From: Ilumatobacteraceae bacterium
Lineage (GTDB): Bacteria > Actinomycetota > Acidimicrobiia > Acidimicrobiales > Ilumatobacteraceae
NCBI GenBank assembly: GCA_017859395.1
Contig: JAFMNE010000005.1
Span: 44,376-85,312, forward strand
Direction: 5' to 3'
Length of the DNA: 40,937 bases
In this document: positions 8,384-14,507 of the stretch, in pieces
How positions within the stretch are numbered: position 1 is the first letter of the stretch
Layout of the letters: each line of letters begins with the position of its first letter
The notes under the pieces: generated by a model
Told to the model about the DNA's origin: nothing
Databases searched by the model: none
What the model saw: the letters and a program-made list of their open reading frames with translations, nothing else
Translations under genes and position numbers: made by a program

Positions 8384-9085
8384 TCAGCCGACGGGGACGC
8401 GACGCTCGCGCTCGATCCATGCATCGAGAGTCGGTGACGACTCGAACGAGGTGATCAAGGCATAGCGGGGTGCGGTTCCGGTGTGTACCACCACATGCCA
8501 GAGCCGCTGCGTGTCGACAACGAAGCGGGCGCCACGGCCAAGTGGAATGCGCTGCTCGGTCGCCGGGTCGGGCAGGCCCTCGGCGTCGTTGTCCATCACC
8601 AGCATGTAGCTGTCGGGATTGTCGGTGAGTTCCACCCAGGTGCGCACCACCCAACCCTCGTTGTCCGGGTTGAAGCGGTTGTTGTCATCACGATGGATCG
8701 ACCGGATGGCGGCCTCGCGGTCTTGGGGTTCGAGCTTGATGATCCGAACCCGTCCGAAGTTTGCTCCCACCGCCGTGACGTAGTCGCGCAGCGTGGGGGC
8801 CACATCGGCATTCGATGTCCACAGTGCGTCCTTGTCGGTTTTGCCCTTGTCCCAGAAACCACGACAGTCCAGTTGACCGTCGGCGGACGCGAGAGGCGCA
8901 AAGTTCGTGTCGCCGCCGCTCTTCCAGTCCATGTACTCGAGGTTTTCCCACTCCGCGGCCGGCACGTCGACGGGCATCGGGTGTAGTTCAACCACCCCGG
9001 TATCGGCAAGGGCAGGAACCCGCCAGTGCGGCGTGTGCAGTGGAATCGACACGCTCCAGTGTTCGGAGTTCGGCCAGAACGCCAT
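8384..9085 (-). CDS. Putative double-stranded beta-helix (2OG/Fe or cupin-like) oxygenase
   Basis: This 233-residue protein is not confidently recognised. Its second half resembles aspartyl/asparaginyl beta-hydroxylase-type folds. His131-Arg-Asp133 (SIHRDDNNRF) looks like an HxD metal facial triad, a distal histidine lies in RLWHVVVH (His197 or His201), and an arginine (TAPRYALI, Arg207) sits where 2-oxoglutarate would be bound. In between is GRGARFVVDTQ, a turn common in these barrels. No signal peptide is seen. It is convergent with ecm, and a LysM lipoprotein gene lies upstream on the same strand after a 166-nt gap. The enzymatic call is inference. Confidence 0.5.
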   Translation of the reverse strand: MAFWPNSEHWSVSIPLHTPHWRVPALADTGVVELHPMPVDVPAAEWENLEYMDWKSGGDTNFAPLASADGQLDCRGFWDKGKTDKDALWTSNADVAPTLRDYVTAVGANFGRVRIIKLEPQDREAAIRSIHRDDNNRFNPDNEGWVVRTWVELTDNPDSYMLVMDNDAEGLPDPATEQRIPLGRGARFVVDTQRLWHVVVHTGTAPRYALITSFESSPTLDAWIERERRVPVG

Positions 9086-9251: not shown

Positions 9252-9695
9252 TCAGCCGGTCGCGATGGTCTCGCGCGGCGGCAGCGTGACGATGACGAAC
9301 CCCTTTGGGATCTCGATGATCTGCCCGGCCCGGATGGCGCTGGCGTCCTCGAGGGCGTTCAACTCGACGAGATCGCTCACCCGCACAGAGAACTGCGCAG
9401 CGATATCACTCAGGGTGTCGCCCGGGCGCACCTCGAACAGGTACGTGTTGTCGTCGACCACCGTCGTCGTCGTCGACGTGGTCGTGGTGGTGCGGATCGG
9501 CGGCAGGGTCTCTATCGATGCGATGTCATCACCGCCACCACAGGCCGCCGCCACAGCACATGTCCCCACGATGACCAGCAATGCAGTGATGCGCCGCGAC
9601 GACACACGCAGCGTCGGCACATCTGATGTAGCCACACCCGATGACGCGACATCCACCGGTGCAGATAGTGGGGTGCCAGAACGCATCGCGGTCAT
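9252..9695 (-). CDS. LysM-domain lipoprotein
   Basis: This 147-residue exported protein has a hydrophobic segment (RRITALLVIVGTCAVAAAC) ending in a lipobox-like AAAC, with Cys52 as probable lipidation site. Next is a threonine-rich linker (about residues 68-78) encoded by short GTC/GTG repeats around 9460-9495, then one LysM domain at about 85-130 (FEVRPGDTLSDIAAQF ... IRAGQIIEIP). LysM domains bind N-acetylglucosamine polymers, so this protein is probably anchored at the outer membrane face and touches peptidoglycan. It has no catalytic domain and may be a scaffold. It is divergent from the alpha/beta hydrolase pair. Confidence 0.85.
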   Translation of the reverse strand: MTAMRSGTPLSAPVDVASSGVATSDVPTLRVSSRRITALLVIVGTCAVAAACGGGDDIASIETLPPIRTTTTTSTTTTVVDDNTYLFEVRPGDTLSDIAAQFSVRVSDLVELNALEDASAIRAGQIIEIPKGFVIVTLPPRETIATG

Positions 9696-9760: not shown

Positions 9761-10735
9761 GTGAGCACCATGCACGACGCCACCCCCGGCGCCACCCCCG
9801 CGGACGCGATGGCCGCCGATGACACCCACCGCGAGTTCCCCGGTGCCCGCACACCCGACCGGTCATGGCGCCTCGATGCCAACGGTGTGGGTATTGCGAT
9901 CAATGAATGGGGCGACGCCGACGCGCCCGTGCTGATGTGTGTACACGGCGGTGCCGACTTCTCGCGCACCTTCGACGTGTTCGCCCCACTACTCGCCGCC
10001 GGCGGTTGGCGGGTGGTGGCATGGGATCACCGCGGCCATGGCGACAGCGACCACACCCACCTGTACTCATTCGATGCGGATCTGCGCGATGCGGTGTGCG
10101 TTTTCGACGCGGTGGCACCGAATCGGCCGGTGGCCGTGCTCGGGCATTCCAAGGGGGGCGCGATGATGACCACCTTGGCCGATGCCCAGCCCTACCGTTT
10201 CCAGCGGTTTGTGAATATCGATGGGGTGCCCTATCGACGACCAGGTCCCGACCTCGCCGAACACCAGCGCGCCACGACCTTGCGCGCCGATCTCGATGGA
10301 TGGCTGGCTCATCGTCGCCGCACCGCGGGCAATACGCGCAAACCGGGCACCATCGCCGAGCTGGCCCGGCGTCGCGGGGCGATGAACCCACGCCTGTCCA
10401 CCGAATGGCTCGAGTATCTGGTCACCGTCGGAGCACGACACGACGACGACGGGTGGCGCTGGAAGCTCGACCCATCGATGCGCATGGGCGGTTTTGGGCC
10501 GTGGCGTCCCGAGTGGGCTCTGTACCGGTTGGCCGGCGTGGATTTTCCATTTCTCGGTGTGCTCGTCGGGGCCGATGAACCGATGGGATGGGGCACCCGC
10601 CCACGACATGTGGAGCCCTACGTGCCCGCCACCGGTCGCCTCGAATACTTCGAGGACCTCGGGCATTTCATCCATATCGAAGCACCAGAGATGACCGCAG
10701 ACCTGGTGCTCGACTTCTTGGGAGATCCACGATGA
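9761..10735 (+). CDS. Alpha/beta-fold hydrolase
   Basis: This protein of about 324 residues has the alpha/beta hydrolase layout: oxyanion-hole HGGADFSRTF, then VAWDHRGHGDSD, nucleophile elbow GHSKGG, and the catalytic His near the C-terminus in DLGHFIHIEAPE. All triad elements appear to be present. The insertion with HRRRTAGNTRKPG is a lid or cap. The substrate is unknown. The start could be GTG 9761 or ATG 9770. The stop overlaps the next gene's ATG by 4 bp (ATGA), so the two are probably translated together. The partner is a shorter relative that lacks the nucleophile. Confidence 0.87.
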   Translation: MSTMHDATPGATPADAMAADDTHREFPGARTPDRSWRLDANGVGIAINEWGDADAPVLMCVHGGADFSRTFDVFAPLLAAGGWRVVAWDHRGHGDSDHTHLYSFDADLRDAVCVFDAVAPNRPVAVLGHSKGGAMMTTLADAQPYRFQRFVNIDGVPYRRPGPDLAEHQRATTLRADLDGWLAHRRRTAGNTRKPGTIAELARRRGAMNPRLSTEWLEYLVTVGARHDDDGWRWKLDPSMRMGGFGPWRPEWALYRLAGVDFPFLGVLVGADEPMGWGTRPRHVEPYVPATGRLEYFEDLGHFIHIEAPEMTADLVLDFLGDPR

Positions 10736-11409
10736 CCACGGCTGGTAACACCGCAGCGACAGAGCCCACCGTGACCCTGCGCCACAACCGTGTGGAACTT
10801 GCCCTGCACCGCATCCGTGAGGCCACCGGTGACGCTCATCCATTACTGCTCTTGCACGGGCTGGGCGAACGCACCCCGGACCACACTCCCGACGTTGTCG
10901 CCTCATGGGACGGCGAGATCTGGGGCCTTGACTTCACCGGTCATGGTGCGTCCACGCTGCCTGTCGGTGGTGGGTACACCGCAGAGATCCTGATGGGCGA
11001 CGCCGATCTCGCGGTCGACCATCTCGGCACCTGCACGGTGGTCGGCCGTGGCCTCGGGGGCTACGTGGCGTTGCTCATCGCGGGGGCACGCCCCGATGTG
11101 GTGCACGGCGCCGTAATCGCCGACGGCCCCGGGCTCACCGGCGGGGCGGTCTCACCCACGTCGCAGGCGGTGGTGCGCCTCGCCGATGTCGGGCGCACAC
11201 CCGACCCGTACGCGCTGCTGGAACTCGGTCGCGACCTGCGACCACCGGACTACGCCCTCGATTTCGTCCAGATGGCAACCTCGACCTCGCATCTCGATGA
11301 GCCTCTGTGTGTGGCCGCGGCGTTCCGGCCCACTTGGCTGGAGGCGGTGGCGGGCGCTCCGGGCGTGGCTCAGATGGGGCTTCCGGACGCTCTCGATCTG
11401 TATCGCTGA
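10732..11409 (+). CDS. Alpha/beta-hydrolase-fold protein lacking the nucleophilic serine
   Basis: This 225-residue homologue of the alpha/beta hydrolase fold has LLLLHGLGERTP and LDFTGHGAST. At the nucleophile elbow it has GRGLGG where GxSxG is expected, so the nucleophile is glycine. The C-terminal region also lacks the usual DxxGH histidine turn. It is short for the family. It overlaps the upstream hydrolase gene by ATGA and ends 24 nt before the convergent polyprenyl synthase gene. It may be a non-catalytic partner or allosteric subunit of the first hydrolase, or a decayed copy. The frame is intact, which argues against simple decay. Confidence 0.75.
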   Translation: MTTAGNTAATEPTVTLRHNRVELALHRIREATGDAHPLLLLHGLGERTPDHTPDVVASWDGEIWGLDFTGHGASTLPVGGGYTAEILMGDADLAVDHLGTCTVVGRGLGGYVALLIAGARPDVVHGAVIADGPGLTGGAVSPTSQAVVRLADVGRTPDPYALLELGRDLRPPDYALDFVQMATSTSHLDEPLCVAAAFRPTWLEAVAGAPGVAQMGLPDALDLYR

Positions 11410-11437
11410 GCCATCTGCGGCTCGAAGTACGGCTCAG
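11406..11437. terminator. Candidate bidirectional terminator dyad
   Basis: CTGAGCC-N18-GGCTCAG is a 7-bp perfect dyad that spans the stop codons of both convergent genes (TGA at 11407, TCA at 11434). Three of the base pairs are forced by the two TGA stops. The loop is long, so the call is weak. Confidence 0.35.
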
Positions 11438-12507
11438 GAGACGCGGTCGGTGACGTAGGCGGCCAGCGCCGTCAGTTCCTCAACCGCCGACCGATCGACG
11501 GCCGGCGCCCCCAACGCAGCCACCGCAGCGACGACGCGTCGGTCGATCTCGGCTTCGAGCGCGGTGAGCGCCCCGGTGTCCACGATCACCTGTTGAATCT
11601 GGGCCACTTCATCGTCGGTGATCTGTGGTGAACCGACGCGATCAAGGATCTCGCGTTGCGCGTCGTCGGCGGCGCCGTATGCGCGAGCCAACAGCGGTGT
11701 GGGCTTCCCTTCGCGCAGGTCACCACCCACCGGCTTCCCGGTCACTGCGGCGTCACCGAAGGCGCCCATCACGTCATCGCGCATCTGGAATGCCTCACCA
11801 AGGGGCAGTCCGTAGGCGCTGAGCGCCGCACCAAGGTCGGAGTCGGGCCGCACACCTGCGGCCGCGGCACCCATATGCAGTGGACGTTCCACGGTGTATT
11901 TCCCGCTCTTATAGCGACACACGCGTTCGGCCCGTTCAAGGCTGCGGTCGGCACGCACCGAGCCCACGATGTCGAGAAGTTGCCCGACGTTCAGTTCAAT
12001 GCGCAGTTCGTTCCACACGCCCCACACCTCGGCGGAGGCACCGGCGAGCAGCATGTCGGAGTACACGAACGCAAGATCGCCCACCAGAATCGCCACACCC
12101 TCGCCGAAGCGACGCGACTCGCCCGCCCAACCGCCGACGGCGTGGAGGTCGGCGAACAGGCGGTGTGTTGCAACCGCGCCACGTCGCTCGTCGGCATCGT
12201 CCATGACGTCATCGTGAAACAACGCGAAGGCATGCATCAGTTCGAATGCCGCACCGATGTCGACGATGGCCGGCACTGCCGAGGTTGGATCACCCGCACC
12301 GCCCGCGGCCACATACCCCCAGTGGCAAAACGCTGGCCGCAACCGCTTGCCGCCAGCACGTACCAGTTGACGAACCTGCCCCATCGGTTCGGCGAGATCC
12401 GCATCGAGTGCAGCCCAGCGCTCCAGTTCAGGCCCGAGCAGTGCCTCGAGTCGCTCGTCCACCTGCTGAGCGATCACAGCGACAGAGGCAGGGGTCGCGA
12501 CGCTCAC
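11434..12507 (-). CDS. Trans-type polyprenyl diphosphate synthase (FPP/GGPP synthase-like)
   Basis: This 357-residue head-to-tail prenyltransferase condenses isopentenyl diphosphate units. The first aspartate-rich motif is HDDVMDD (Asp99, Asp100, Asp103) and the second is RDDVMGAFGD (Asp244, Asp245, Asp252). GGKRLRPAF near residue 52 binds IPP. A phenylalanine five residues before the first motif (Phe94) suggests a short C15-C20 product rather than a long menaquinone chain, but this is a rule of thumb. The start is a GTG at 12507. The xseB stop is 75 nt upstream, so it may be the last gene of the pccB-accE-xseA-xseB run. Confidence 0.9.
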   Translation of the reverse strand: MSVATPASVAVIAQQVDERLEALLGPELERWAALDADLAEPMGQVRQLVRAGGKRLRPAFCHWGYVAAGGAGDPTSAVPAIVDIGAAFELMHAFALFHDDVMDDADERRGAVATHRLFADLHAVGGWAGESRRFGEGVAILVGDLAFVYSDMLLAGASAEVWGVWNELRIELNVGQLLDIVGSVRADRSLERAERVCRYKSGKYTVERPLHMGAAAAGVRPDSDLGAALSAYGLPLGEAFQMRDDVMGAFGDAAVTGKPVGGDLREGKPTPLLARAYGAADDAQREILDRVGSPQITDDEVAQIQQVIVDTGALTALEAEIDRRVVAAVAALGAPAVDRSAVEELTALAAYVTDRVS

Positions 12508-12582: not shown

Positions 12583-12810
12583 TCACGCACCGGTGTCGAG
12601 ATCGGCCACCACCGTGTCGATCCGCAGCCGTGCCGCATCCACACGTTCGCGACAGATCGCGATCAGTTCAGCGGCTCGGGCCACCCGATCGGCCAGACGG
12701 TCAACGTCCACATCAACCGATTCGAGTTCTCCAAGGATCTCATCGAGCTCGGCGAGTGCGGCCGCGTAGGTAATCCCGCTCGAATTCTCTGCATCGTGTT
12801 CGTTGGCCAT
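12583..12810 (-). CDS. xseB: Exodeoxyribonuclease VII small subunit
   Basis: This 75-residue XseB pairs with XseA to form the ssDNA-specific exonuclease VII. It shows the short helical bundle ITYAAALAELDEILGELES followed by the repetitive VDVDRLADRVARAAELIA. The start at 12810 (MANEHDAENS) is preceded by AGGAGC about 12 nt upstream. It is separated from xseA by 165 nt with no gene in it. Confidence 0.93.
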   Translation of the reverse strand: MANEHDAENSSGITYAAALAELDEILGELESVDVDVDRLADRVARAAELIAICRERVDAARLRIDTVVADLDTGA

Positions 12811-12975
12811 TAGGTGGTCAGCTCCTCGTGGTGGAAATGCCGCGGCTACTCGGCCGGGCGGGGATGCGGACGGTGGACGTGGAAGCGAGCGAGACCACAT
12901 CGGACATATACGTACCGACCGGACACGCCGGCACGGGTCGGCACCGCGGTACCCACCCGTGATGGTGGCCCCTGG

Positions 12976-14301
12976 TCATGATGCGGCATCTCCGGTGGCG
13001 CGGTCGTCGACGTCGGTCACCGTCGTCGTCACCGTGCCGTCGGCCACGGCGGTGGTCAGCACATCACCGAGCTGCACATCGTTGATCGAACGCACCACCG
13101 ACCCGGTTGATGTCGTGGTGATCGACCATCCACGCGCCAGCAAATTTGCCGGGTCGACTGCACGCCGACGACGCTCCATCGCCAAGACCTGTTCGTCGGC
13201 CAGCCGCAGCCGGGCCGGCACCAGTCGAGCCATGTCGGCGCCACGACGCACCAGGGCCTGATCAGCGCGCTCCAATGTGGCTCGCACCCCCACCAGACGT
13301 TCCCGGCGGGCCCGCAGGCGTTCATCGGATCGGCTCACCGCGGCATGGGTACGCCCTGCCACCCGATGTGCCCGAGTACCGAGATCCGCGGTCGCGGCCG
13401 TCATTGTGGAACTCGCAGTGGTGACAATGTCGCGCCATAACGACTCCGACGTGGCGACGGCAGCGCGCACCATGTCGATGAGCGCCCCGGCAACTGCCGT
13501 GGGTGTTTTGTAGGCGGCATAGGCCACATCATCGGCCACGGTGTGGTCGATCTCATGGCCGATACCGGTAAGTACCGGCACCGGGCACAGCGCGATCGCC
13601 CGGGCAACCTCGGCGGTGTCGAAAGCGGCGAGTTCGTTCCGTGCCCCGCCACCACGCACCACCGCGATCACGTCCACGTCGCGGCGCACCAGTTCGGCAA
13701 TGCCTGCAGCGATCATCGGTGGCGCATCGTCGCCCTGCACGCGGGCATCAACGGCAGTCACCGTGAATCCGATACCCGACGACGCCAACTGGTCGGTCAG
13801 GTCATGCCATGCCGCCGAACCGACACTGGTGACCACGCCGATATGCAGCGGTACCGGTGTCATGGACAGCGCGGCGTTGCGGTCCAAAAGCCCATCGGCA
13901 GCCAGTTGTCGCAACACTGCATCGCGGGCCGCCGAGATGTCACCAAGGGTGAACTCGGGATCGATATCTGCAAGTTTCAACCCGAGGCGGCCGGTGGGGG
14001 CATATACATCGAGGGTGCCGCGGATCCGGATGCGGGTGCCGTCGGTGAGTTCCAATCGATGCTGCGCCAGCAGCGGCCGGAGCGCCTTCTTGGCGTATGC
14101 GAAGAACTGCACGTTGAGCGAGGCCTTATCACCATCGACTTCCTCGACGAGCGAGAAGTAGGTGTGCGGGCCACGAACGGTGAGCCCACTGATCTCGCCA
14201 ACAACCCATACCCCCGCGCCGAAGGCGTCGCGCAGAGCGGAGTTGATCGCGCCGGTGAGTTCACCGACGGTGTAGGTGACGGCGCCGTCGCCGTCGGTCA
14301 T
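12976..14301 (-). CDS. xseA: Exodeoxyribonuclease VII large subunit
   Basis: This 441-residue large subunit of exonuclease VII degrades single-stranded DNA to oligonucleotides during repair. The N-terminal OB-fold contains WVVGEISGLTVRGPHTYFSL and RIRIRGTLDVYAPTGRL. The catalytic region carries PLHIGVVTSVGSAAWHD, DVDVIAVVRGGGARNELAAF and TGIGHEIDHTVADDVA. Next comes a long coiled-coil arm rich in Arg, then the C-terminal NLLARGWSITTT. The ATG at 14301 overlaps the stop of the upstream accE by ATGA, which decides the start over an ATG at 14358. Confidence 0.96.
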   Translation of the reverse strand: MTDGDGAVTYTVGELTGAINSALRDAFGAGVWVVGEISGLTVRGPHTYFSLVEEVDGDKASLNVQFFAYAKKALRPLLAQHRLELTDGTRIRIRGTLDVYAPTGRLGLKLADIDPEFTLGDISAARDAVLRQLAADGLLDRNAALSMTPVPLHIGVVTSVGSAAWHDLTDQLASSGIGFTVTAVDARVQGDDAPPMIAAGIAELVRRDVDVIAVVRGGGARNELAAFDTAEVARAIALCPVPVLTGIGHEIDHTVADDVAYAAYKTPTAVAGALIDMVRAAVATSESLWRDIVTTASSTMTAATADLGTRAHRVAGRTHAAVSRSDERLRARRERLVGVRATLERADQALVRRGADMARLVPARLRLADEQVLAMERRRRAVDPANLLARGWSITTTSTGSVVRSINDVQLGDVLTTAVADGTVTTTVTDVDDRATGDAAS

Positions 14302-14507
14302 CGCCACCAGGGTCGACGTGGGGCGCGGCGACCCGCACCCAGCGGGGTGGTCATCCACGAGCGACCGCTGACCTGCCAGGCCGATGCCGTGTCATCGGCC
14401 GGGGGGATCGCAACCGCGCGTGGCCACAGCGCGTCGACAGCCGCCGCGATGGCGGCCATCTCGGCCTCATCGGGTGTGGGCGTGACCTGCAGCGACGATG
14501 AACTCAC
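14298..14507 (-). CDS. accE: Acyl-CoA carboxylase epsilon subunit
   Basis: This 69-residue small protein resembles the actinobacterial acyl-CoA carboxylase epsilon subunit (AccE/PccE). It has an N-terminal [20 protein letters not shown] helix and the short [13 protein letters not shown] end that these subunits carry. In Streptomyces and Mycobacterium, epsilon binds the beta subunit and stimulates the holo-carboxylase. It starts with a GTG at 14507 that overlaps the pccB stop by 4 bp (GTGA), and its own stop overlaps xseA by ATGA. Translational coupling to pccB fits an obligate stoichiometric partner. The Arg-rich C-terminal tail is not conserved in the family. Confidence 0.8.

Follow-up and report, generated by a model that had tools for sequence, protein, structure and literature searches.

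The second gene of an overlapping pair in the analysed window (the whole stretch of 40,937 nucleotides) encodes an alpha/beta-hydrolase-fold protein without the catalytic Ser and His, and this protein is probably an obligate non-catalytic partner, as a subunit or an activator, of the intact hydrolase encoded by the first gene. The two genes are called here gene 1 and gene 2. A regulatory subunit had already been proposed for gene 2 in the preliminary description of this DNA; the proposal is well supported by the co-occurrence and co-divergence of the two genes, and binding and regulation are what we infer from their sequences.

The alpha/beta hydrolases, which are among the commonest enzymes, are generally assumed to work on their own. 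A dead member that has stayed with its live partner in many families of a bacterial class would offer a test case for pseudoenzyme control of a hydrolase. If gene 2 is indeed such a partner, gene 1 proteins of the clade may look inactive when they are assayed alone, and annotation by fold only, which labels both genes as "alpha/beta hydrolase", hides the pairing. Dead alpha/beta hydrolases are already known; searches of open-licence literature listed no paper whose title or abstract beginning describes a live-dead pair of this kind that is fixed in an operon throughout a bacterial class.

Catalytic residues of the two proteins

The counts given below refer to two sets. Strong matches to gene 2 (E 1e-16 or better) were obtained in 85 genomes and 88 places of a family sample of 200 genomes, and these places together with the locus L039 make up the set of 89 loci. 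The set of 128 rows consists of these 89 loci, 38 loci of the class and one genome (G599). Two copies (L098 and L099, of L020 and L032) were removed before counting, and L100-L116, L118 and L130 are repeats of places already counted. The features of the window are collected in Table 1.

Table 1. Positions of the gene pair, its motifs and its neighbours in the window
Feature	Position	Strand	Basis or remark
Gene 1, alpha/beta hydrolase, 321 aa (P0001)	9770-10735	+	ORF, Pfam, conserved Ser/acid/His
ATGA, gene 2 start codon overlapping gene 1 stop codon	10732-10735	+	sequence
Gene 2, alpha/beta-hydrolase-fold protein without catalytic Ser and His, 225 aa (P0002)	10732-11409	+	
Gene 2 nucleophile elbow GRGLG, residues 105-109, Gly 107 replacing Ser	11044-11058	+	sequence, alignment
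Polyprenyl synthetase, tail to tail with the pair	11434-12504	-	
XseB	12586-12900	-	after polyprenyl synthetase
XseA	12979-14358	-	after XseB

Gene 1 matched three alpha/beta hydrolase Pfam families above their cut-offs (Hydrolase_4 with 72.2 bits, cut-off 27), and its closest PDB match by sequence was 3qit, a thioesterase domain of the curacin pathway (E 6.9e-16). Its catalytic Ser 127 lies within the elbow motif GHSKGG and its His 299 within the C-terminal motif GHFIHIE, and Glu 270 is, from its position, the probable catalytic acid. Among the aligned loci covering these sites, the Ser was kept in 119/119, the acid in 121/121 (Glu in 112, Asp in 9) and the His in 121/121. In the set of 89 loci SKGG was found in 83/83 and GHF.H in 85/85 covering loci, and the first residue of the elbow motif was G in 65, A in 17 and cut in one. 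This arrangement of Ser, acid (placed by position) and His points to a catalytic serine hydrolase; GHSKG and a C-terminal His had already been read in the preliminary description. The same description had begun the first gene of the pair at the in-frame GTG 9761, which is an alternative to the start at 9770; a further in-frame alternative is TTG 9740. The structure model of gene 1 was poor (pLDDT 46.8) and was left unused.

The elbow of gene 2 reads GRGLGGY in the window. Gly was present at the elbow in all 125 covering rows of the 128-row set (window included) and in 86/86 covering loci of the 89-locus set, and no Ser, Cys or Asp was found there in any of the 125 rows. The residue preceding this Gly was R in 116 rows, H in 3, Y in 2, W in 2, A in 1 and F in 1 (n=125), and the residue following it was L, I, F or V throughout the 128-row set; the locus L154 carries ARGLGS. 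The last His of the protein in the window is residue 187 of 225, and no conserved His was found after beta-8, since the maximum in any column of residues 186-225 was 7 of 86. A GRGLGG elbow without nucleophile and a missing C-terminal His had both been described earlier from the window alone, and it had been asked whether Gly always stands at the elbow; the alignment answers that it does, with no Ser row.

Beyond that earlier account, the acid after beta-7 is also absent: no conserved acid was found there, and no column of residues 191-203 has more than 6 D/E. Immediately behind beta-6, 123/125 rows retain an Asp (D131). In some alpha/beta hydrolase families the catalytic acid has moved to after beta-6, as stated in section 2.7 of PMC11878206, and hence we do not claim the loss of all three residues. 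The conserved acid and His in triad places which characterise lyases with an acid-His dyad and no Ser were likewise not found in gene 2, as the His is missing.

The remainder of the gene 2 protein is strongly conserved. In the 128-row set 40 positions show at least 97% conservation; fully or almost fully conserved residues include H42 (124/124), D67 (125/125), H71 (126/126), G107 (125/125), D158 (125/125) and R170 (125/125), and both the HGLG turn and a highly conserved lid, PDP.AL.EL.RD.RP.DY, are retained. In 21 hand-chosen close pairs dN/dS of gene 2 was 0.027-0.150, mostly slightly above that of gene 1. Judged from these substitution rates gene 2 is under purifying selection and its frame is kept for its protein, as had been suggested from the intact frame. 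Pfam matches of gene 2 were found below cut-off only (22.1 bits), and by sequence it gave weak esterase matches over its N-terminal half in the PDB (best E 6e-7). That its match is beyond chance follows from the family relatives at 48-71% identity and the invariant elbow Gly.

Distribution, separated copies and neighbours

The overlap of gene 1 and gene 2 by four bases, seen as ATGA in the preliminary description, was found in 82/85 pairs of the 89-locus set and in 35/36 further loci. The exceptions in the first set are L039 with a gap of 7 bases, L070 with an overlap of 1 base, and L041, in which gene 2 is broken by TAG. In the family sample of 200 genomes both genes were found in 84, gene 1 only in 2, gene 2 only in 1 and neither in 113, and in the three single-gene genomes the gene found is cut at a contig end where the partner is expected. 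In a class sample of 395 genomes the 56 with gene 1 are identical with the 56 that have gene 2, none holds only one and 339 hold neither, under cut-offs which differ for the two genes (E 1e-20 for gene 2, E 1e-60 for gene 1) and with only a few candidates scored per genome (7 and 5, respectively). The sampled genomes are related, and these co-occurrence counts are not independent trials. A missing or broken gene 2 in relatives had been named beforehand as an observation against a non-catalytic role; apart from the genomes cut by contig ends, a broken gene 2 was found in 2/128 loci (L041 with one TAG, L170 split across two frames).

The pair is patchy, and two genomes of the window's own genus (G122 and G142) are without both genes. 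A search of 396 genomes of the phylum gave strong gene 2 matches in 15, among which only G599 is outside the class, and it also gave weak matches to other hydrolases. The pair is also present, at about 55% identity, in L039 (JAFDDH010000290.1), a contig of 5 kb whose title assigns it to a deltaproteobacterial metagenome bin; this is either a transfer or a mis-binning.

In a few places the two genes are separated. In the family f21 (G410, G455 and G513) gene 2 lies near xseA and gene 1, present in all three genomes, lies on another contig and keeps GHSKGG and GHFAH. Mean distances of the f21 genes to 14 other loci were 0.88 vs 0.55 for gene 1 and 0.75 vs 0.62 for gene 2; unlike both of these, xseA is not unusually diverged (0.88 vs 0.91). 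The partial correlation of gene 1 and gene 2 distances given xseA was 0.76 for the 17 loci with readable xseA and 0.51 for the 14 loci without f21, and 0/5000 permutations reached either value, with the qualification that xseA is a weak control for co-divergence because its distances are large and noisy and it evolves fast. In G599 (L171, G599:C90:2107-8742) gene 1 is separated from gene 2 by the genes of an ABC ATPase and an ABC-2 permease, all on one strand. The genome G011 has a second copy of the pair (L172, G011:C10:2620-19736), in which the two genes lie on opposite strands at a distance of about 6.6 kb; this stretch also holds genes of an aldehyde dehydrogenase, a CoA-transferase III, an acyl-CoA dehydrogenase and AAA/VWA-CoxE. 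These three arrangements indicate that strict translational coupling of the pair is dispensable. G011 also holds a gene-1-like paralogue (L173, G011:C103), 41% identical and with the elbow GHSKGA. Its neighbours are genes of an acyl-CoA dehydrogenase, a GntR/FCD regulator and a putative cyclase, and its stretch has no gene 2.

Of 34 stretches, 11, 17 and 18 have the polyprenyl synthetase, XseB and XseA, respectively, in tail-to-tail orientation to the pair. The polyprenyl synthetase is probably outside the system of the pair, and a function drawn from these three neighbours was rejected, as their orientation is opposite and no substrate is indicated by them. A thiolase lies upstream of gene 1 in L180, and in L187 by cluster only. 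The acyl-CoA genes beside some unusual copies give no more than a hint of acyl-CoA metabolism, and of an acyl ester or thioester as substrate. A promoter scan found nothing.

Two other neighbours were observed on the upstream side. A Fur-family regulator (L177:7719-8159) belongs to a cluster which recurs upstream of the pair in 7/34 stretches, and the window is not in this cluster. In the window, a frame of 233 aa at 8384-9085 (minus strand) adjoins a LysM gene (9252-9695) and has no Pfam match at E 0.001; frames clustering with it lie on that flank of the pair in 7/34 stretches, and the member in L070 is also without a Pfam match.

Predicted fold and origin of gene 2

The structure of gene 2 was predicted from an alignment of two rows (the window protein and L039), with a mean pLDDT of 66.5 and a pTM of 0.72. 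All eight strands of the fold are present in the model in short form (residues 13-18, 21-29, 38-42, 63-67, 101-106, 124-130, 192-195 and 212-214), and the lid at 133-171 is uncertain (pLDDT <50). The predicted central sheet and the strand-turn-helix elbow after beta-5 are those of an alpha/beta hydrolase. In VIA-align 1000/1000 aligned chains were at Z >=8, and the top match was the esterase Est1E (2wtm_B; Z 17.1, rmsd 4.5, 183 aligned). Feruloyl esterases and dienelactone hydrolases rank next, and NDRG2, FrsA and the epimerase BotH (6t6h; Z 13.8, rmsd 4.3, 178 aligned), the chemistry of which is atypical, rank lower. The first Foldseek match was 3qit (E 9.2e-8). Such a common fold by itself indicates no function for gene 2.

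A duplication of gene 1 was considered as the source of gene 2 and was rejected, as a quick tree (47 rows) does not show gene 2 as the sister of gene 1. The gene 2 sequences group together there (SH-aLRT 88, not starred) with L136/L138 nearest to them, and a branch of 97 (starred) separates them from gene 1, which falls among other hydrolases; with long branches and few cousins (13), the tree supports only that the two are not sisters. In profile comparison the gene 2 profile (A1) matched L138 with a probability of 98.4 and E 7.2e-15 over 104 columns, and its match to A2 was weaker (E 5.5e-8). As gene 2 is nearer to L136/L138 than to gene 1, the pair appears to be assembled from two lineages and not by a split of one gene in place. 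L138 and L136 are short hydrolases (about 226 aa) and are the nearest Ser-bearing relatives of gene 2 that were found; they carry a GHSLGG elbow and C-terminal segments of the GDH/GGHRFH type, whereas gene 2 has neither.

As a separate observation, hydrolases with GHAMGA, and therefore Ala at the elbow, were seen at L135:1104-2262 and L137:1305-2289 (minus strand, reverse-strand coordinates; G869 and G664). They belong to one genus outside the class, are not placed near gene 2 by the tree, and are possibly another nucleophile-less kind.

Role of gene 2 and known systems

In the mechanism which we favour, gene 1 and then gene 2 would be translated from one transcript by stop-start coupling, as the overlap suggests, and the two proteins would form a heteromer in which the chemistry is done by the Ser-Glu/Asp-His set of gene 1. 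Gene 2 keeps the fold, the HGLG turn, the Gly elbow and the lid but is unable to form an acyl-enzyme in the usual way; its most likely task is to stabilise gene 1, to shape or cover the entrance by which the substrate reaches gene 1, or to activate gene 1 as CGI-58/ABHD5 does with ATGL. Against this obligate partnership it can be held that co-occurrence and co-divergence are also expected from two steps of one pathway, that the pair is separated in G599, L172 and f21, and that the L173 paralogue stands without an adjoining gene 2. A wider form of the proposal is tentative: a widespread heteromeric bacterial hydrolase may have live and dead alpha/beta-hydrolase subunits of different ancestry, in which the conserved pocket and lid of the dead one sense a ligand or acyl group and switches the live one on. 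By analogy, such a heteromer could possibly be a bacterial counterpart of lipase activation of the CGI-58 type, fixed in one operon.

It is doubtful that gene 2 is a ligand-binding receptor, or a carrier of product or substrate, which acts in the pathway of gene 1 in the way of GID1 and without being a stable subunit. The pocket motifs and the lid are its best kept parts (H42, D67, H71, G107, D131, D158 and R170), and GID1 proteins have lost catalytic function with their His replaced, according to PMC10873640; yet the fixed overlap of four bases and the strict one-to-one co-occurrence exceed the needs of a free receptor. We also regard as unlikely an enzyme with a non-canonical site (an isomerase, lyase or cyclase) which would use the oxyanion pocket and the invariant Asp, His and Arg before or after gene 1. 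Strongly conserved polar residues speak for it, D131 among them, at a place open to a migrated acid (PMC11878206, section 2.7), as do the cyclases of alpha/beta-hydrolase fold with a broken triad which are described in PMC10873640 and the epimerase BotH (6t6h) among the fold matches. However, the elbow carries no Ser, Cys or Asp and no C-terminal His is conserved, so that the protein has neither a triad nor an acid-His dyad, and the residue before the elbow Gly varies (R, H, Y, W, A, F).

It is quite improbable that the two genes function independently and are simply inherited together as neighbours. Passive linkage is conceivable from their conserved place beside polyprenyl synthetase-xseB-xseA in many loci, but presence agrees in 56/56 genomes of the class in spite of the patchiness (339/395 without both), and f21 retains both genes unlinked while both diverge. 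A decaying relic or a sequence artefact, to which the broken frames in 2/128 loci (L041 and L170) might point, is hardly credible, being refuted by a dN/dS of 0.03-0.15, an open full-length frame and 40 positions at >=97%.

Among known systems, the thioesterase domain 3qit is a common match to gene 1 by sequence and to gene 2 by its model, at low identity, and a polyketide substrate is not implied by it. A likeness in role is that to the cofactor of ATGL, which is a patatin-type lipase. This cofactor, CGI-58/ABHD5, has the alpha/beta-hydrolase fold without the catalytic Ser, as given in section 2.7 of PMC11878206. The likeness proposed between it and gene 2 is one of role only. GID1 and the carboxylesterase-like cyclases of plants, as PMC10873640 describes them, lose the His, whereas gene 2 is without both Ser and His and is paired with an intact hydrolase. 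CGI-58/ABHD5 is eukaryotic and has ATGL as its client, whereas the proposed client of gene 2 is an alpha/beta hydrolase in the same bacterial operon.
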